From: a bacterium
GTDB lineage: Bacteria; Blakebacterota; Blakebacteria; Blakebacterales; Blakebacteraceae
Assembly (NCBI GenBank): GCA_025774205.1
Contig: JALGWK010000108.1
Location: 1-9,034, forward strand
DNA length: 9,034 nt
Reading direction: 5' to 3'
Program-made: the position numbers and the translations under genes
Notes under the pieces: generated by a model
Databases searched by the model: none
Told to the model about the DNA's origin: nothing
The model's input: the letters and a program-made list of their open reading frames with translations, nothing else
Part shown: one piece after another, positions 376 to 8,287 of the stretch
Numbering within the stretch: position 1 is the stretch's first letter
Layout: each line of letters begins with the position of its first letter

Positions 376-1830
376 TCACGGTTGAGCTGTCGGCTCGAAT
401 CCCGGAACGCGGCTGAGGATCAAGCCGGTGGCGAACGAGGTCGCGCATCCGAATGGTACCAGCCAGACCCAGAATATGCCGGTAAAAAGAATGAGCGCGC
501 CGGCCGTGACCACCCCGGTCAGGAGGGCCGCCACCGCTGCCCGCGGTCCGGGACGGGTCGTGAAGCGGCCGAGAAGGAAGGTACCGAGAAATCCCCCATA
601 GGTGACCGAGGCGATCGAGAGACCGAGCTCGACGACGGGATTGTCGGTGGAACGGAAGAGCATCGCACCCCCCACGAGCACACCCGCCCAGAAAAGGGTG
701 GTGAGGCGCCCGCGCCTGAGACCGTCGCCATCCCCTGACCGGTCAGCGTCGGATGATCCCCGTCGCGGCCGGAAGAGATCGAAGATGGTGCTGCTCGCCA
801 GCGAGTTCAGGCTGGAACTGAGAGTGGACATCGCCGCGGCGAAGATCGCCGCCAGCAGAAGGCCTGAGAGACCGGGGGGGAGGCCTTCGAGGATGTAGCG
901 CGGAAAGACCTGGTCGGTGGGGATGGCCGCGCCCTCGTAGAAGACGGCCAGCGCCGAGCCGAGCATGAGGAAGAGAAGGAATTGAAGCACCACAATGAAT
1001 CCGCTCGCGATCAGCGCCATCTGAGCCTGACGAAGCCCCCGGGTGGACAGGAGACGCTGGACGAGCAGCTGATCGGTCCCATGACTCGCCATACTGAGGA
1101 AGGCCCCTCCCAGGAGTGCGGCCGGGAGTTTGTATCCACCCGAGAAGAGTCCACTCCAGCCTTCATCAAGACCAAGGTCGATGATCGCCAACTTCTCAGC
1201 GGGCAGGGCTCCGGTGATCCCGCTCCATCCTCCGACTACCGTGGTCACGATCCAGAGCGCGATGACAGCGCCGGAGATATAGAGCACGAGCTGCACCGAG
1301 TCGAGCCATACCACCGACCTGATGCCCCCGACATAGGTGTAGAGGACCGTGACGGCGCCGATGATGAGAATGCAGATCGGGTATGACCAGCCGGTGATGA
1401 GGGCCAGCGGGATGGCGGTCGCGAAGAGCCGCACCCCGTCAGCCAGTACCCTGGTGATGAGGAACATCACCGAGGCGGTTGCCTGCGGTGCCCGGCCGAA
1501 CCGCTGACCGAGGAAGGAATACGCCGTTTCCGATTCCCCCCGGAAGTAGGAGGGCAGCAGCACGACGGCAATGACGATCCGCCCGATCACGTACCCGAAC
1601 GCCAGCTGCAGGAAGGTCATGTCGCCGTGATAGGCCAGGCCGGGCACGCTGATCACCGTGAGCGTGCTCGTTTCGGTAGCTACGACCGAGAGCGCCACCA
1701 GGGTCCAGGGCAGGGTACGGCTGCCGAGGAAGTAATCGGTCGCCGAACGCTGGGACCGTCCCATCCAGAGTCCCAGTCCGATACTCCCCGCCAGGTAGAC
1801 CGCCAGGACGACCAGGTCGAGTCCGCTCAC
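376..1830 (-). CDS. Sodium:solute symporter (SSS family), candidate amino-sugar/anhydroMurNAc importer
   Basis: A 484-residue hydrophobic protein, usual SSS length, with about 13 predicted membrane segments. Family signatures are TDYFLGSRTLPW (31-42), YTYVGGIRSVVWLDSVQ (165-181), HGTDQLLVQRLLSTR (250-264) and AAAMSTLSSSLNSLASS (331-347). The last is the Ser-rich TM8 region that contributes the Na2 sodium site in vSGLT-like proteins. A hydrophilic loop (about 353-376, RPRRGSSDADRSGDGDG) follows. The start is GTG at 1828-1830, overlapping the anmK stop in a GTGA, with a strong purine tract (GGGAGGGAGGG) just upstream inside anmK. It should use the Na+ gradient to carry a small solute across the inner membrane. 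The substrate cannot be read from sequence. Translational coupling to anmK and position after two peptidoglycan hydrolases make anhydroMurNAc or a related muropeptide sugar the leading guess. Family certain, substrate inferred. Confidence 0.95.
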   Translation of the reverse strand: MSGLDLVVLAVYLAGSIGLGLWMGRSQRSATDYFLGSRTLPWTLVALSVVATETSTLTVISVPGLAYHGDMTFLQLAFGYVIGRIVIAVVLLPSYFRGESETAYSFLGQRFGRAPQATASVMFLITRVLADGVRLFATAIPLALITGWSYPICILIIGAVTVLYTYVGGIRSVVWLDSVQLVLYISGAVIALWIVTTVVGGWSGITGALPAEKLAIIDLGLDEGWSGLFSGGYKLPAALLGGAFLSMASHGTDQLLVQRLLSTRGLRQAQMALIASGFIVVLQFLLFLMLGSALAVFYEGAAIPTDQVFPRYILEGLPPGLSGLLLAAIFAAAMSTLSSSLNSLASSTIFDLFRPRRGSSDADRSGDGDGLRRGRLTTLFWAGVLVGGAMLFRSTDNPVVELGLSIASVTYGGFLGTFLLGRFTTRPGPRAAVAALLTGVVTAGALILFTGIFWVWLVPFGCATSFATGLILSRVPGFEPTAQP

Positions 1831-3068
1831 GCCGTCCCTCCCTCCCCGGTTCCGGTGGTGAGCGGACGCCGGGGACCCGGAACCAGACTGCCGAGCACAA
1901 CCGGATGTACGGCCCCGGTAACCGCCGGCACATTCGCCGGCACTCCCTGCAGGAAGGCATCAGCCAGCAGCGCGAAGGCAGCCGCCTCCCGGGCGTCGAC
2001 GGGGAGTCCCAGCTCATCACTCGTCCGCACCGGGAGCGGGTCGAACCGCTCGGTGAGACACTCCATTATCACCGGGTTCCGGGTGCCGCCGCCGGCCACG
2101 AAGATCTCCCGGTCACCGCTCCCCTCCCCGTCTGGTGGCAGATGCTCCCGGCACGCCCCGACAATCGATTCGACGGTGAATTCCACGGCGGTCCTGACCA
2201 GGTCGGAGAGGGAGTGCCGGCCATATCCCGACTCCATCACCCGGTGCGCGAACTCCTCACCGAACTCCTCCCGGCCGGTGCTCTTTGGAGGCGGGCGACG
2301 CAGGAAGGGATGAGCGAGCCACTCCTTGAGGAGGTCGGGGACCACTCTTCCGGTCCGGGCGAGCCCGCCATCCAGGTCGAACGGTAATCGGGAATCTCCG
2401 GCCCGGACAAGGGCGTCCATCACCATGACCCCGGGGCCGGTGTCGAATCCGGTAACCCCCTCGATTCCCCTGCCCGCGGGGAGCCAGGTCAGATTGGCGA
2501 TACCGCCCAGATTGAGCATCACCCGGTCTTTCCCGGTATCGCGAAAGAGGATCGCGTCGGCGAACGGGACCAGGGGAGCGCCCTCCCCGCCGGCAGCGAC
2601 ATCACGACTGCGGAAATCACCAACCACATCGCAGCCAAGACGCTCTGCGACTACGGCCGCGGAACCGATCTGCACGGTCGCGCCCGCCTCCGGTGGATCG
2701 TTACCTGAGGCGCGACCGTATCCACCGCGGGGATCGTGGAATACGGTCTGTCCGTGGAGACCGACAGCGGTGAGAGCATCGGCGTCGAGGCCGGCCGAGC
2801 GGATCAGCGTACGCAGGGCTTCTGCGTACACCTCACCCAGCCGCGTGTGGAGTCGGGCAGTCGGCACCAGGAGCGCCGACCGGGGATCGGAGGCACGCAG
2901 GATATCCCGCTTCAGTCCTTCATCAAGGGGATCGGTGCGCCAGGCCAGGAGTTCCCATGAGAGGTCGGGGTAATCGCCTTCGAAACGGAGGAGGGCGGTA
3001 TCGATCCCGTCAGCGGAGGTCCCCGACATGCAGCCGGCCAGCAGCCGGGCCGCCCGGGGAGGACTCAC
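1827..3068 (-). CDS. anmK: Anhydro-N-acetylmuramic acid kinase
   Basis: A 413-residue ASKHA-fold kinase that opens the 1,6-anhydro ring of anhydroMurNAc and phosphorylates it to MurNAc-6-phosphate in the cytoplasm, a step of peptidoglycan recycling. Visible motifs are the N-terminal phosphate-binding loop GCMSGTSADGID (12-23), GLHGQTVFH (103-111), VGDFRSRDVAAGGEGAPLVP (149-168, Glu where many homologues have Gln in GGQGAPL), NLGGIANLTWLP (186-197) and GFDTGPG (207-213) with the likely catalytic Asp209. Near the C-terminus are FVAGGGTRNPVIMECL, the EAAAFALLA helix and PAVTGA. It is longer than the E. coli enzyme (369 aa), partly from an insert around 115-130. The start is GTG at 3066-3068, giving a 4-nt GTGA overlap with the upstream carboxypeptidase stop. 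Its own stop overlaps the symporter start the same way. No murQ or nagZ is in the window. Confidence 0.96.
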   Translation of the reverse strand: MSPPRAARLLAGCMSGTSADGIDTALLRFEGDYPDLSWELLAWRTDPLDEGLKRDILRASDPRSALLVPTARLHTRLGEVYAEALRTLIRSAGLDADALTAVGLHGQTVFHDPRGGYGRASGNDPPEAGATVQIGSAAVVAERLGCDVVGDFRSRDVAAGGEGAPLVPFADAILFRDTGKDRVMLNLGGIANLTWLPAGRGIEGVTGFDTGPGVMVMDALVRAGDSRLPFDLDGGLARTGRVVPDLLKEWLAHPFLRRPPPKSTGREEFGEEFAHRVMESGYGRHSLSDLVRTAVEFTVESIVGACREHLPPDGEGSGDREIFVAGGGTRNPVIMECLTERFDPLPVRTSDELGLPVDAREAAAFALLADAFLQGVPANVPAVTGAVHPVVLGSLVPGPRRPLTTGTGEGGTA

Positions 3069-5035
3069 CGCTGTCCACCGTCCGGACCGCTGAACCTGAC
3101 CAGTACTGTCCCGATCGGCAGGCCCTTCCGCCTGACGGTGATCTCATGGAGTCCACCACCACCCGGCAGAGGGCGATCCTTCAGCAGATCGTCACCGAGC
3201 TGGAGCTCGCTCTCCCGATCCCGGCTCCCGCCGGTTTCGCCGGATCCGCGCCAGTCGACCGTTAACGGTCCCGACTCCCGCGGGAGGGTGACCAGCTCGA
3301 TCACCTTGAGACTCGAGGTCGAACCGAGGTTCAGTGTATCTCCTTCGGCGAGAGCCAGGAGAGGTCCGTACCCGGGCTGAATGAGGACGTACTCGAGCCG
3401 CGGTATCACGATCTCCACGAACGAGCGGGCGAAGATAATCCCATTCAGTTCGGCCCTGATCTCGTATCGCTCTGAATCGGGGCTGAGGCTGAAGCGCTGG
3501 AGAAGGTCGTGAGCGGTATTGATCGGGTAGCCCCGATCCTCCCCGTCGTTCCGCCTCTGGTTTCCGACAAAGCCCCGGAAGTTGATCTTGAATCCTTCGG
3601 TCGGGGCCGCCAGAGGATCATCCAGCAGGAGTTCATCCCCCCACAGGACCTTCAGGGTCTCATCGGGTTGCAGCCAGGTCCAGCGTCCCTCCTGAGCGAT
3701 CCGGAACGCCTCGATGACGATCGGGGACGACTCCCCGGCCGGCCGGGTTGCCGGCGCGGGGATACCCGTCAGGGAGGGATCCGCGATCAGGAGGACACTC
3801 CCGCACGGGTACTTGTCCTTGCTCACTGTAACCCGGGTATCCCTCTCGATCCGGAACGCCAGTCCCAGGTCGTTGAAGCCCCCTTCACCCTCGATATCGA
3901 CCAGGATCCCGCGTTCGTAGTTCGCTTCGATATGGGTGATCTCGATCGTGGAACCGGGGGCCAGATTCAGGGATCCGCCGTTCTCCACGATCAGTGAGGG
4001 ACCGCCGTCGATGGAGACGGCGAGGTACCCGAGCACGGGTGTCTCGAGGGCGAAGCGCGGATGGTCCGGAACGATATCGAAGGCCTCCATGAAGGCATTG
4101 ATCACCAGCACCTGGTACCTGACCCGCTGCGACTCCAGCATGATATCCTGGGAGGTTTCGACTCCGAATCCGGGTATGCCCACTTCACTCACGGCATAGA
4201 AGGTCGCTGAGCCGCGCTGCTCCCGGTGACTTGAGTTCTCGTCGAAGGTAAGGGTGTTCTTGATCCTGAAATGATGACCGGCATCGGTGATCAGATGGTT
4301 GACCAGCCTCACCGCCTCGCCCGCTGTGCCGAGCAGGTCGCATCGCTTTCCATCGGACGTCGTGAAAGACTCGGTGTCGATGATCACCGACTGCCCCCAC
4401 AACCGGGGATTGCGCCGAGGTCCTTCCTCGACGGGACTGTAGAAACCTGATCCATCATGCAGGTTGAGCAGCACATCGGCCTGCGCCATGAGTTCTTCGA
4501 GGATGATTGCGATCTCGCGATCGATATGACCGTTATCATAGCCGCCGAACCGCCGGTTCAGATCACCCTCATTACCACGCGCATTCTGGTGGATCGCCTG
4601 GATATTGGCTCTCGGTACCACGATCAGATTGCCCCGGCGGAGGGAGAGATCGGCATAGAGGTCGGCTGCCAGATAGCCACCCGGTTCGTTACCATGTATC
4701 CCGCCGATGATGAGCATCGTCGTCCCCGGTTCCCGGCCGAGGATGTGGTAGATGTGCAGTTCGTGATCGGTATTGGGGAAATATATCCGGTGAGTCCGCC
4801 CGGGACCGTCCACGGTATCGGGATCGAACCGCTCGGAGGAGACCGTAACCGGCGTTGGAACTCCCCCTCCTCCTCCCATGGTGGTCAGGGGCGTCAGGGC
4901 CGATTCCCCGGAGAGGTTCGGGGCGCGGCTGACGTCGTCTGCCGGTGAATTGGATCCGGAGACGGCAAGAATCACCGGGAGGAGCACGACGACCACCGGG
5001 ACCAGGGAGCCGAATATCAGCCTTCGGCGCTTCAT
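3065..5035 (-). CDS. M14/M99-family peptidoglycan D,L-carboxypeptidase, Csd4/Pgp1-like
   Basis: A 656-residue protein with a basic N-terminus and one hydrophobic segment (7-28), a signal peptide or anchor, then a low-complexity linker with five glycines (54-58). The carboxypeptidase domain (about 80-320) shows the zinc site GGIHGNEPGG (111-120; ligands His114 and Glu117), NARGNEGDLNRRFGG (151-165; substrate-binding Arg/Asn), the third zinc ligand His193 in NLHDG, and the catalytic Glu293 in GFGVETSQD. Helicobacter Csd4 has Gln in place of the first His; here the classical HxxE is kept. About 320-415 resembles the M99 beta-barrel domain. The rest is beta-rich, with a GFVG...EDRGYPI segment like the M99 C-terminal domain. 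Csd4/Pgp1 trims muramyl tripeptides to dipeptides in the periplasm. The ATG at 5033-5035 overlaps the upstream stop (ATGA) and is preceded by GGTGGAGG. Family confident; exact substrate inferred. Confidence 0.88.
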   Translation of the reverse strand: MKRRRLIFGSLVPVVVVLLPVILAVSGSNSPADDVSRAPNLSGESALTPLTTMGGGGGVPTPVTVSSERFDPDTVDGPGRTHRIYFPNTDHELHIYHILGREPGTTMLIIGGIHGNEPGGYLAADLYADLSLRRGNLIVVPRANIQAIHQNARGNEGDLNRRFGGYDNGHIDREIAIILEELMAQADVLLNLHDGSGFYSPVEEGPRRNPRLWGQSVIIDTESFTTSDGKRCDLLGTAGEAVRLVNHLITDAGHHFRIKNTLTFDENSSHREQRGSATFYAVSEVGIPGFGVETSQDIMLESQRVRYQVLVINAFMEAFDIVPDHPRFALETPVLGYLAVSIDGGPSLIVENGGSLNLAPGSTIEITHIEANYERGILVDIEGEGGFNDLGLAFRIERDTRVTVSKDKYPCGSVLLIADPSLTGIPAPATRPAGESSPIVIEAFRIAQEGRWTWLQPDETLKVLWGDELLLDDPLAAPTEGFKINFRGFVGNQRRNDGEDRGYPINTAHDLLQRFSLSPDSERYEIRAELNGIIFARSFVEIVIPRLEYVLIQPGYGPLLALAEGDTLNLGSTSSLKVIELVTLPRESGPLTVDWRGSGETGGSRDRESELQLGDDLLKDRPLPGGGGLHEITVRRKGLPIGTVLVRFSGPDGGQR

Positions 5036-5748
5036 CTGCCCTCCACCGGGAAGCCCTGTTCCAGGACCAGTTCCCCGGCCCGGTCATATACGAGGAAGCG
5101 CACTTCGCGCATCACGAATCCCTCAGGGAGCGAGATATTGAAAAGAACGGGCTTCAGCCGTCGGATCGAGAAAGCTTCACCCGCCTGGGGAGAGAGTGGA
5201 CGACCGTTCACGACTGTCACCAGGGGATAGGTGAAGTACCGTCCGGGCCGCACTGCGTCCTCGATCAGGACGATGATGAACCCGCTCTGGACCGCTCCGG
5301 TCCATTCGGTCTTGGTCAACTGGATCTGCAGCTGCCACTCCGAGTCACGTTCCCCGGCTATCATGCGGAAGTCATCGAACCGGACCGGGGCTTCCTCCAG
5401 ATCGAGGCGCTCCGGGGCGACGATCGGCGCACCCGGCTCGACCGATACCGCCTGCCGCCGGTCGATCTCCTCCTGCTCCTCCCCGGCCGCCGGAACCTGC
5501 TCGACACTCACCGGCGGAGGCGTCATCGCGATGATCTCACGTCCCACCAGCAGCTGGTGTTCATCCCAGAGGTTCCTGAAACGGATATTCTGGTCGATTA
5601 CCATCCAGGTCAGCACCCCGAAGAGGATGACCAGCAGACTGAGGAGAGTGAAAAACCAGACGAGCTTACTGCGTGTGAGGGTCAGGGTCTTGTTCTCGCC
5701 GTCAGACTTCAACAGGATCAACGTCAGATCTCGCCGGTTCTCGGTCAT
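5032..5748 (-). CDS. Single-pass inner-membrane protein with periplasmic domain, function unknown
   Basis: A 238-residue protein that I do not recognise as a named family. A short polar cytoplasmic N-terminus (MTENRRDLTLILLKSDGENK) leads to one strong membrane helix (about 29-51). A possibly helical juxtamembrane stretch, a Pro/Glu-rich linker (about 76-125) and a beta-rich C-terminal domain (about 125-238) containing SEWQLQIQLTKTEW and GFIIVLIED follow. The domain would be periplasmic by the positive-inside rule. I chose the ATG at 5746-5748. An in-frame extension to 5937 would be Arg/Pro/Ser-rich, lacks family character and overlaps the upstream gene. The ribosome-binding site is weak. The gene sits 55 nt after the YkuD gene and its stop overlaps the M99 start (ATGA). 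This makes it a candidate scaffold or partner for the two wall hydrolases, like the bitopic Csd proteins of Helicobacter. That is analogy, not detected homology. Confidence 0.85.
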   Translation of the reverse strand: MTENRRDLTLILLKSDGENKTLTLTRSKLVWFFTLLSLLVILFGVLTWMVIDQNIRFRNLWDEHQLLVGREIIAMTPPPVSVEQVPAAGEEQEEIDRRQAVSVEPGAPIVAPERLDLEEAPVRFDDFRMIAGERDSEWQLQIQLTKTEWTGAVQSGFIIVLIEDAVRPGRYFTYPLVTVVNGRPLSPQAGEAFSIRRLKPVLFNISLPEGFVMREVRFLVYDRAGELVLEQGFPVEGR

Positions 5749-5803
5749 CTCACATCCCGTTCGTTCAGGGGGTCGAACGACAGGTCCGGATCGACCCCGG
5801 CAA

Positions 5804-7174
5804 CTATCCTTCCGGGATCTCCTCCCTGACGATCTTCCAGGTCTCCCCGGAGAGCCTGAAATGAAGCGATTTGCGGGTCGTGTCGGTGTAGAGGTCGGAA
5901 CGGTAGGTCTGCATGAACTCCACGACCGCGGTATCATCCTGAACAGAGACAGTCAGGTTGGTGATATCTATCTCGATGAAGTCGTACTGCCCGGCCAGCC
6001 GTTCCTTGTGAGCCTTCCAGGCATCGTAATCCCGACCCTGACCGCGGAACGATTGATCGTAGAACGACATGTACCGGTCGACATCCTTCGATTCCCAGGC
6101 TTCCTCCCACCCGGTCACCCGCTGACGGACATCGGCTGCGCGAAGGACTCGGATCTCGTCAACCGTCGGTACTGTGACGCGGGTCGGCGCTGCCTCCTCG
6201 ATCTCCTCGCGGCGCTCCTCACGAGTCTCGGGGGGCTGCTCTTCAGCAACGGCTGCCTGCGGGGCGGGTTGGAAGACCCCCTGCTGCGAGCTGGTAATGT
6301 GACCGGTCTCCTGGACAATCTTCCAGGTTCCGCCGTATTTCTGCCGGAAGGTGGCCACAAGCTCATCATCGTGGGTGTAGAGCCGGAGGTCATCCAGCTC
6401 CAGATCAATGAACGTGTACTGGTTGTTCAACCGGTTCTTGTAGGCCTTCCACGTTGCATAGTCCCGGCCCATTCCATGGAAGCGTCGATCGTAGAAACTC
6501 ATGTAACGGTCGGTATCGCGCGATTCCCATGCCTCTGCCCACGCGTCAAGAAGCGACCTCATCTCATCCCGTAATGAGGATGCCCGCTCCCGATCGAGGA
6601 GTTCGAAGTACTCCCGGACGATCAGGGGAGTAGCATCTGAGAGCGGTCCCATGTTGATCGCGGGGGTGAGGATCTCCAGCCCCTCGTTGGTGACGACGAC
6701 ACAACCCCTGGTATTCCGGCCATCCCAAACCCGTTCAGGTTCGTCGGTGGCGTGGAGCCAGATATTGCTGCCATCCTTCCCGTCAAGCAGATCGAAGATG
6801 TTCGGATAGTCTGTCGTGAAAGCTCGTACGCCGTACTCCGCAGGCAGGGTCCTGCCATCGATGATCCGACCGAAGAAGTAGATCCCCTCCGGTGTGCGCA
6901 GGTCACCCTCCTGGTGCTTGTCACCGTCCTTCTCCCCCGTGTTGGTCCGCATGATGTGAAGAGGACGGGGCACTCCATCAGATGTGCCGACATAGAGCAC
7001 CAGGGTTTGAGTGGCCTTCTCCACCAGGATGGCATAGCCCCCTTCAGGCAGGAGGAGGACAGAAGCGGGCAGCCGGTCGGTGAGCCCACCCTCGACCGCG
7101 TACCCGTTGCCGTTGGCGGGACCGGGATCCTGTTGGGCAGTGAGCAGACAGAGAAGGCAAAGCGAGCGGAGCAT
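5804..7174 (-). CDS. L,D-transpeptidase/L,D-carboxypeptidase (YkuD fold) with two NTF2-like domains, Csd6/Pgp2-like
   Basis: A 456-residue exported enzyme. It has a short hydrophobic N-terminus (MLRSLCLLCLLTAQQ), then a YkuD catalytic domain (about 45-190). Motifs are GDLRTPEGIYFFG (90-102), IWLHATDEP (138-146, catalytic His141) and NTRGCVVVTNEGLE (154-167, nucleophile Cys158), matching the family's H...[S/T]RGC pattern. Two NTF2-like/SnoaL-like domains follow at about 205-290 and 350-453. Each carries WESxDxDRYMSFYD and GRDYxxWKAxKxRL, and they are separated by a charged linker (EEQPPETREERREEIEEAAP). Helicobacter Csd6 and Campylobacter Pgp2 pair a YkuD domain with one NTF2-like domain and act as periplasmic L,D-carboxypeptidases in cell-shape control; here the accessory domain is doubled. 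It starts 6 nt after the lipoprotein stop, with a GGTGG about 11 nt upstream. Whether it cross-links or trims peptides cannot be decided from sequence. Confidence 0.9.
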   Translation of the reverse strand: MLRSLCLLCLLTAQQDPGPANGNGYAVEGGLTDRLPASVLLLPEGGYAILVEKATQTLVLYVGTSDGVPRPLHIMRTNTGEKDGDKHQEGDLRTPEGIYFFGRIIDGRTLPAEYGVRAFTTDYPNIFDLLDGKDGSNIWLHATDEPERVWDGRNTRGCVVVTNEGLEILTPAINMGPLSDATPLIVREYFELLDRERASSLRDEMRSLLDAWAEAWESRDTDRYMSFYDRRFHGMGRDYATWKAYKNRLNNQYTFIDLELDDLRLYTHDDELVATFRQKYGGTWKIVQETGHITSSQQGVFQPAPQAAVAEEQPPETREERREEIEEAAPTRVTVPTVDEIRVLRAADVRQRVTGWEEAWESKDVDRYMSFYDQSFRGQGRDYDAWKAHKERLAGQYDFIEIDITNLTVSVQDDTAVVEFMQTYRSDLYTDTTRKSLHFRLSGETWKIVREEIPEG

Positions 7175-7180
7175 TTCTGA

Positions 7181-7723
7181 TCAACCACCCAGGCCTGTGC
7201 GGAGGATGGTCATGATATCCGCCGCCGGATTCGAGGAGGGGGCCTCGATGATCCGACCGATTTCAATATTCCCCTGCAGAACGACGAAGGTGGGGGAGGC
7301 GGTGACATCATATCGTGATGCCAGCCCGTCACGGTCCTCGAGACGACGGTTCAGACCAATGATCCGCAGAGTGATCCGATTGTTCTCTACCTCCTTCATG
7401 GTCGCGAACAGGGCAGGCACATGGATCTGTGCGTCCACGTTCCAACTGCCCATGAAGACCAGGATCGTGACCTGTTCACGGAGATCATCAAGGTAGCCTG
7501 CCGCTTCCCGGTCGGTAGAGATCAGGTCTGTCCGGGTGCGGAATACCGCTATGTTCTCGAGGACCCACTCCATGTCACCCTGTCCGAACATCTCATTCCC
7601 GTCGAGACCGGCCGGGGTGACCGGACCGCTGTTCTGGTCGGAGGAAGAGCAGGCGCCGAGGACCATCACCGCGGCGAAGGCGGCAAGCAGGCAGGCTGCG
7701 GATCGATTACGGTTACCGGTCAT
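7181..7723 (-). CDS. Thioredoxin-fold lipoprotein lacking the CXXC active site
   Basis: A 180-residue protein with a lipoprotein signal: basic n-region MTGNRNR, hydrophobic core, and lipobox VLGAC with lipidated Cys25, followed by SSSDQ. From about 85 the sequence follows a thioredoxin fold: the strand VTILVFMGSW, an active-site helix ending near VPALF, the strand ITLRIIGLN, and the cis-proline loop ASPTFVV (Pro144). The active-site motif reads W-N-V-D-A (94-98) where thioredoxins have WC..C, and no cysteine exists beyond the signal peptide. It therefore cannot do dithiol chemistry and is probably a binding or structural protein. I chose ATG 7721-7723 over the longer frame to 7846 because it places the signal peptide at the N-terminus and avoids overlap with the repeat gene, whose stop is 17 nt upstream. 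It heads the cell-wall block, with only 6 nt before the YkuD gene. Confidence 0.88.
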   Translation of the reverse strand: MTGNRNRSAACLLAAFAAVMVLGACSSSDQNSGPVTPAGLDGNEMFGQGDMEWVLENIAVFRTRTDLISTDREAAGYLDDLREQVTILVFMGSWNVDAQIHVPALFATMKEVENNRITLRIIGLNRRLEDRDGLASRYDVTASPTFVVLQGNIEIGRIIEAPSSNPAADIMTILRTGLGG

Positions 7724-7739
7724 GCCATTATCCGACAGG

Positions 7740-8105
7740 TCAGAGGTCTTCTTCGGTTGTTTCTTCACCAGCTTCATCCACCGGTTCATCCTCATCAAGG
7801 GTCTCAGGTGTGTCCGACACTTCACCGGTTTCATCTGCGGGATCATCCCCGGTCACGGTTTCGGGCGCGTCTGACACTTCACCGGTTTCATCTGCAGGAT
7901 CATCATCGGTCACGGTTTCGGGCGTGTCTGACACTTCACTGGTTTCATCTGCAGGATCATCCTCGGTCGCGGTTTCGGGCGCGTCTGACACTTCACCGGT
8001 TTCATCTGCGGGATCATCCTCGGTCGCGGTTTCGGGCGCGTCTGACACTTCACCGGTTTCATCTGCGGGATCATCCTCGGTCACGGTTTCGGGCGCGTCT
8101 GACAC
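7740..8105 (-). CDS. Acidic 19-residue repeat protein, probably the C-terminal tail of the cold-shock protein
   Basis: This frame encodes six tandem copies of about [19 protein letters not shown] and ends in EETTEEDL. It is almost devoid of basic and aromatic residues, so it should be an intrinsically disordered polyanion. The only start in its own frame is a GTG at 8103-8105, overlapping the end of the cold-shock frame by 25 nt, with no convincing ribosome-binding site. Reading this frame further upstream gives [14 protein letters not shown], which joins the cold-shock domain at ...FEITEG if one G is added to the GGG at 8127-8129. The restored product would have 182 residues (548 + 1 bases, a whole number of codons). 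The NV just before the repeats fits the usual end of a cold-shock domain. I judge it most likely a tail fused to csp, by genome mutation, sequencing error or ribosomal frameshifting. A separate overlapping gene is the alternative. Confidence 0.65.
7759..8100 (-). repeat. 57-bp tandem direct repeat, five full units plus one diverged unit
   Basis: The landmark gacac on the plus strand recurs at 7816, 7873, 7930, 7987, 8044 and again at 8101, an exact 57-base period. Units from 7816 to 8100 differ by only a few bases. The unit at about 7759-7815 is diverged and encodes the final [19 protein letters not shown] copy. Because 57 is divisible by three, copy-number change would keep the frame and only alter the length of the acidic tail. 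There are no spacers between units. Confidence 0.95.
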
Positions 8106-8287
8106 ATTTCCGTCATTACTCTCAGTCCCTCGGTGATCTCGAACTCAACCTCCTCACCTTCCTTCAGCGTCCGGAATCCCTCTCCGGCGATAGCGGTATA
8201 GTGCGCGAACACATCAGGACCATCCACCTGGCTTATAAACCCATAGCCCTTCTGGTTATTGAACCACTTCACAGTACCGATCGGCAT
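8081..8287 (-). CDS. Cold-shock-domain protein (CspA family), with disrupted C-terminal frame
   Basis: A small RNA/ssDNA-binding beta-barrel protein. [18 protein letters not shown] contains the first strand and RNP1 (KGYGFI, 13-18). VFAHYTAI (26-33) carries RNP2, and [20 protein letters not shown] (35-54) completes the barrel up to the last strand. Cold-shock proteins normally finish with a segment like GPKGPQAANV; here the frame instead runs [14 protein letters not shown] to a stop at 8081. The -1 frame gives GTESNDGNV and then the acidic repeats. The start is ATG 8285-8287, preceded by GGGGAG about 10 nt upstream; an upstream in-frame extension to 8320 is unconvincing. As read, the product is 68 residues; with one G restored at 8127-8129 it would be 182. 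It probably has its own promoter in the 159-bp gap and may lead the transcript into the lipoprotein and wall genes. Confidence 0.9.

Follow-up and report, generated by a model that had tools for sequence, protein, structure and literature searches.

The same two kinds of wall-trimming enzyme bend the cells of Helicobacter, Campylobacter and Bdellovibrio, and genes for both stand close together in the window, the whole 9,034-nucleotide stretch of DNA analysed here. This raises the question of what the two enzymes do together with the membrane protein encoded between them and with the kinase and symporter genes that follow. The first-pass annotation had read the five genes as one operon for joint wall trimming and wall recycling. 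The window comes from a 3.09-Mb genome bin that is 86% complete, and its phylum-level lineage is represented by four genomes in the genome set used.

On the minus strand the gene order is rlmB, a cold-shock gene (csp), a gene for a thioredoxin-like lipoprotein, the five operon genes and the start of a DUF5118 protein. The operon genes together span positions 376-7174 and encode an LD-carboxypeptidase of the Csd6/Pgp2/Bd1075 type with a YkuD domain and two Cds6_C NTF2-like domains (456 residues, 5804-7174), a candidate bitopic adaptor (238 residues, 5032-5748), a DL-carboxypeptidase of the Csd4/Pgp1 type with a Peptidase_M99 domain (656 residues, 3065-5035), the anhydro-N-acetylmuramic acid kinase AnmK (413 residues, 1827-3068) and a sodium symporter of the SSS family (484 residues, 376-1830). 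The YkuD and bitopic genes are separated by 55 bases, and each of the last three junctions is a 4-base overlap, confirming the single, tightly packed minus-strand operon described earlier. Profile searches for Peptidase_M99, YkuD and AnmK, proposed at that time as a check, all gave matches over the cut-off, and the family assignments of the two enzymes, the kinase and the symporter stand.

The gene for the thioredoxin-like lipoprotein (7181-7846, minus strand; Thioredoxin_9 E 3e-4, below cut-off) lies outside this span and ends 6 bases ahead of the YkuD gene, making it a possible first gene of the transcript. No relative of it was found upstream in one sister genome of the phylum (G003). Its listed ATG falls inside a tandem repeat, and the true start is probably later. 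In csp (8081-8287, minus strand) the cold-shock domain stops at profile position 56 of 66, and beyond the break an out-of-frame run leads into a 57-base tandem repeat of 5.2 copies (region 7812-8105), where an alternative frame (7740-8105) encodes acidic 19-residue repeats. This could be an acidic tail that is frameshifted or phase-variable, or the repeat may have been assembled wrongly. A scan of the window for promoters and terminators was uninformative.

The neighbourhoods of M99 genes were compared in the best 80 named loci from one M99-alignment scan, a sample that is biased to close relatives and consists mostly of Desulfobacterota, with Nitrospirota, KSB1 and Aminicenantes in addition. 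A Csd6-like gene lies upstream of M99 on the same strand in 66 of these loci, the bitopic gene does so in 61, and a bactofilin gene is found near M99 in 40. The bactofilin is downstream of M99 in 36 of the 40, mostly within about 200 bases, and the other four have a tandem bactofilin pair upstream. All ten bactofilins tested were confirmed by Pfam, and the enzyme calls in other phyla were spot-checked. Iterative profiles unite all 56 intervening proteins and the bitopic protein of the window as one family. Among the 60 loci with enough flank, 30 carry both bitopic gene and bactofilin, 15 the bitopic gene alone, one the bactofilin alone and the other 14 neither of them (Fisher p 5e-5, not corrected for kinship). 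The M99 tree supports just three to four independent bitopic/bactofilin pairs, too few to reach significance, and none oppose the association. In three Syntrophus-type loci (L049, L050 and L051) the YkuD gene directly overlaps the M99 gene, and neither the bitopic gene nor a bactofilin is present, which represents a concerted loss of these two. The genes for the YkuD enzyme, the bitopic protein and the M99 enzyme form an old cassette that is widespread beyond the window's phylum, and they are linked on other contigs as well.

The pairing of Csd4- and Csd6-type enzymes is itself not new, because pgp1 and pgp2 were described in 2014 as neighbours in Nitratiruptor, Nautilia, a Desulfococcus and Persephonella (PMC3961634). 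That report was without an intervening bitopic gene or bactofilin, whereas the cassette described here has the bitopic gene and, in many lineages, the bactofilin, and no description of either as a part of the cassette was found in the open-access literature. The novelty lies in the candidate bitopic adaptor and in the set of four genes that bactofilin completes; the enzyme kinds and their adjacency were already known.

AnmK matches its Pfam family with an E value of 1.6e-99 and the NCBIfam equivalog NF007148 with 425.3 bits against a cut-off of 387, and its best PDB relative is 3CQY (E 4e-62). The symporter matches PF00474 (SSF) with an E value of 9.5e-36 and TIGR00813 above the cut-off, and SiaT (5NV9, E 1e-39) is its nearest solved relative. 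Arg135 of SiaT, which we take to have a role in sialate binding, aligns to Ala130 of the window symporter, and a sialic-acid-type substrate was dropped for that reason. The substrate is possibly an amino sugar.

These two genes lead to the first alternative, that all five genes form one operon for wall turnover and salvage, in which the YkuD and M99 enzymes trim released or old wall, AnmK and the symporter take up and phosphorylate anhydroMurNAc, and any effect on cell shape is incidental. The 4-base overlaps continue through the AnmK and symporter genes, as this reading would have it, and the arrangement recurs within the phylum: M99 is present in all four genomes, AnmK lies directly behind it in all three in which the contig continues past M99 (G000, G001 and G002), and an SSS gene lies behind AnmK in both that reach that far (G000 and G001). 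In the same four genomes, which are 63-86% complete, MurQ was found above the cut-off in three and GH3 in two, and AmpG in none, by a model that does match in five control genomes. With MurQ in three of the four and AmpG in none, salvage of anhydroMurNAc by AnmK and the symporter in the absence of AmpG is plausible; that the symporter takes it up independently of AmpG is no more than a reasonable guess. However, among the best 80 named M99 loci neither AnmK nor SSS was found behind the cassette outside the window's phylum, and in the loci sampled the trimming genes instead accompany a bactofilin and the membrane adaptor across phyla. In addition, the substrate of AnmK is a sugar and not the stem peptides. 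AnmK and SSS are thus a local addition of the window's phylum in a slot that is usually occupied by bactofilin, and because they are absent from the cassette elsewhere in the loci sampled, joint trimming and recycling is not the best reading of the operon; we regard it as unlikely. Of the first-pass annotation's proposal, the conserved Csd6/Csd4 pairing holds, whereas the joint function is weak and the tie to AnmK and SSS was seen only in the window's phylum. The two genes are probably co-expressed for salvage.

AnmK and SSS were also considered as a general pair, and this was rejected, a weak SSS match beside AnmK being found in only one of 27 AnmK loci outside the phylum (L199). The murQ gene is away from AnmK in three phylum genomes (L208-L210), where it comes immediately after a secF-like gene.

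The strongest functional clue comes from the bitopic protein, whose presence in the operon had been noted correctly but which had been left without an identity. Its AF2 model (pLDDT 86) consists of a confident cytoplasmic beta-hairpin (residues 8-24), one long transmembrane and coiled-coil helix (26-75), a loose linker and an Ig-like domain (120-238). The single sequence scores 15.3 bits against the Pfam profile of DUF6776 (PF20567), below the cut-off of 27, but in a profile-profile comparison with hhalign the Ig-like domain matches DUF6776 with a probability of 97 and an E value of 5e-11, and by this measure it is a remote DUF6776 relative. A comparison of the bitopic profile with solved structures returned only coiled-coil and transmembrane chance matches. 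Of 20 loci from gammaproteobacteria, a class inferred from gene content, 19 have bactofilin next to the DUF6776 gene, and no report linking DUF6776 with bactofilin was found in the open-access literature. These loci resemble the cassette in the remotely homologous periplasmic domain and the bactofilin neighbour; they differ in having no YkuD or M99 genes nearby and a cytoplasmic end unlike the bitopic hairpin. AnmK lies near 15 of the 20 (L154-L172), on the opposite strand, which is a second, independent vicinity of AnmK and bactofilin. It was not retained as a firm link, since AnmK and DUF6776 are convergent and therefore only loosely linked. In L154, the one locus read, an erpA-like gene follows DUF6776-bactofilin.

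The cytoplasmic hairpin of LmdC is the element that binds bactofilin in Rhodospirillum and through which LmdC is recruited to it (PMC10945521). A hairpin profile from 58 bitopic proteins was compared with that of 15 LmdC-type M23 hairpins, using pre-transmembrane segments only, and gave a score of 24.8 (E 1e-6). Among the controls, 200 column shuffles averaged 6.0 and peaked at 11.6, the N-termini of membrane proteins, drawn in 60 random sets, peaked at 8.9, and the DUF6776 N-termini gave 5.7. The bitopic protein shares with the LmdC-BacA system of Hyphomonas and Rhodospirillum a cytoplasmic beta-hairpin, a transmembrane segment, a coiled coil and a bactofilin partner gene. LmdC, however, ends in an M23 domain, which by Pfam and fold is absent from the bitopic protein. 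The Ig-like, DUF6776-type domain stands in its place, so that the bitopic protein would recruit enzymes rather than be one. A second likeness, by described role, is to Csd5 and Csd7 of H. pylori, membrane proteins that connect wall enzymes in the periplasm with the bactofilin CcmA (PMC9448923). The bitopic protein, with its single span and Ig-like domain, differs from both: Csd5 carries an SH3b domain at its end, and Csd7 crosses the membrane several times.

Alternatively, the bitopic protein could be a general periplasmic chaperone or activator of both carboxypeptidases that makes no contact with bactofilin, its hairpin serving only for membrane insertion. The 15 loci with a bitopic gene and no bactofilin nearby would fit such a role, and so would the hairpin of M23 proteins without an adjoining bactofilin, in which it is equally strong and may therefore mark a wider class of membrane proteins; short hairpins can also converge. 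Yet the bitopic hairpin is a confident and conserved cytoplasmic structure in the AF2 model, like the experimentally defined bactofilin-binding element, and the DUF6776 relatives of the Ig-like domain also adjoin bactofilin. A chaperone without a bactofilin partner appears improbable to us.

The bactofilin of the window's phylum is encoded elsewhere, in a locus of the order parA-parB-M23-bactofilin (L215, L216 and L218), in which the M23 peptidase is of the LmdC type and bears the hairpin. Because both the bitopic and the M23 protein carry the hairpin, the lineage would have one bactofilin with two hairpin-bearing clients. The same locus ties chromosome partition genes to wall shape genes.

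The two enzymes themselves are well assigned. In the product of 5804-7174 a YkuD domain (E 1.6e-10, 42 bits against a cut-off of 23.4) is followed by the two Cds6_C NTF2 copies (E 1.5e-35, 122 bits against 27), the first of which is shorter than in the sister genomes. The best solved relative is Bd1075 (7O21, E 7e-46), followed by Csd6 (4XZZ, 3e-24) and Pgp2 (6XJ6, 3e-20). Residues Glu110, Tyr133, Trp158, His160 and Cys176, which are essential in Csd6 (PMC4599014), are kept as E89, Y114, W139, H141 and C158. The triad glycine is replaced by A142 and Csd6 His155 by S136, both as in Bd1075, and A142 and V160 match Bd1075 at sites that have been discussed for that enzyme. Bd1075 is a proven LD-carboxypeptidase that gives the Bdellovibrio cell its curvature (PMC8938487). 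It shares YkuD plus NTF2 and the A142-type triad with the window enzyme, but is monocistronic with one NTF2 domain, whereas the window enzyme has two and lies in an operon with M99. That the enzyme is instead an LD-transpeptidase or a DpaA-like amidase, for which its place in the YkuD superfamily and a weak DpaA/LdtF match (E 0.001) could be cited, is very unlikely in view of the two Cds6_C NTF2 domains and a top match to Bd1075 that includes A142 and V160.

The product of 3065-5035 matches Peptidase_M99 with an E value of 1.3e-30 (107 bits against a cut-off of 27) and has an N-terminal membrane or signal helix, the M99 domain at about residues 80-320 and several beta domains. Csd4 is its best match by sequence and also the best fold match of its model (pLDDT 80; Foldseek 4WCK, E 1e-28). 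The metal and catalytic residues are H114, E117, H193, R153 and E293. With respect to the Csd4 motif QxxE...H and its Arg86, Arg94 and Glu222, the window protein has E117, H193, R153, R161 and E293, and differs at the first metal ligand, where Gln46 of Csd4 is replaced by His114, an HxxE ligand as in ordinary M14 enzymes. Among 30 aligned M99 members this ligand is Gln in 25 and His in five, namely those of the window's phylum, L067 and L090. A structure of Csd4 with the corresponding Gln46His exchange exists (4WCM).

The same two enzyme families with, apart from His114 at the first metal ligand of the M99 enzyme, the same catalytic residues are found as Csd6/Csd4 in Helicobacter pylori and Pgp2/Pgp1 in Campylobacter jejuni, where sequential trimming from tetra- to tri- to dipeptides is known. 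The genes lie apart in those species, whereas in the window they form an adjacent cassette. Judged from its sequence, the periplasmic Csd6/Bd1075-like enzyme of the window would convert tetrapeptides to tripeptides by taking off the terminal D-Ala, and the M99 enzyme would next shorten these to dipeptides. Pgp1 acts on the product of Pgp2 and both are needed for the helix, but their co-expression in E. coli gave no bending (PMC3961634), so that a localiser is to be expected. By analogy with LmdC, the cytoplasmic hairpin of the bitopic protein would dock on the bactofilin filament, and its coiled coil and Ig-like domain would cross the membrane and hold one of the enzymes, or both, at a single face of the cell.

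On balance we favour, as moderately likely, a bactofilin-guided wall-trimming module formed by the first three genes that sets cell curvature, with AnmK and the symporter as co-expressed salvage. The most likely role of the bitopic protein is to tether both trimming enzymes to bactofilin, presumably as a complex, and thereby set curvature. Bactofilin would be the fourth gene of this module in many lineages, its slot being taken by AnmK and SSS in the window's phylum; these two would most likely recover the anhydroMurNAc that this wall turnover sets free, in a lineage where AmpG was not detected, and would not be part of the shape machine. Against the bactofilin-guided module it must be said that several cassettes have the bitopic gene with no bactofilin nearby. 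Moreover, Bd1075 functions from a monocistronic gene, so such an enzyme does not strictly need an adaptor gene next to its own.

Taken more broadly, proteins that combine an LmdC-type hairpin with a DUF6776-type Ig domain may constitute a family of bactofilin adaptors, coupling both carboxypeptidases to bactofilin in a portable curvature cassette across phyla. We found no description of such a family in the open-access literature and hold the chances for and against it to be evenly balanced. What positions trimming carboxypeptidases along one flank of helical and vibrioid cells is a question that a conserved candidate adaptor gene, with a hairpin like a proven bactofilin-binding element, makes testable. 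The cassette also provides a marker by which curved cells can be predicted from the genomes of many uncultured lineages. If true, the adaptor family would give part of the reason why E. coli was not bent by Pgp1 and Pgp2 alone.
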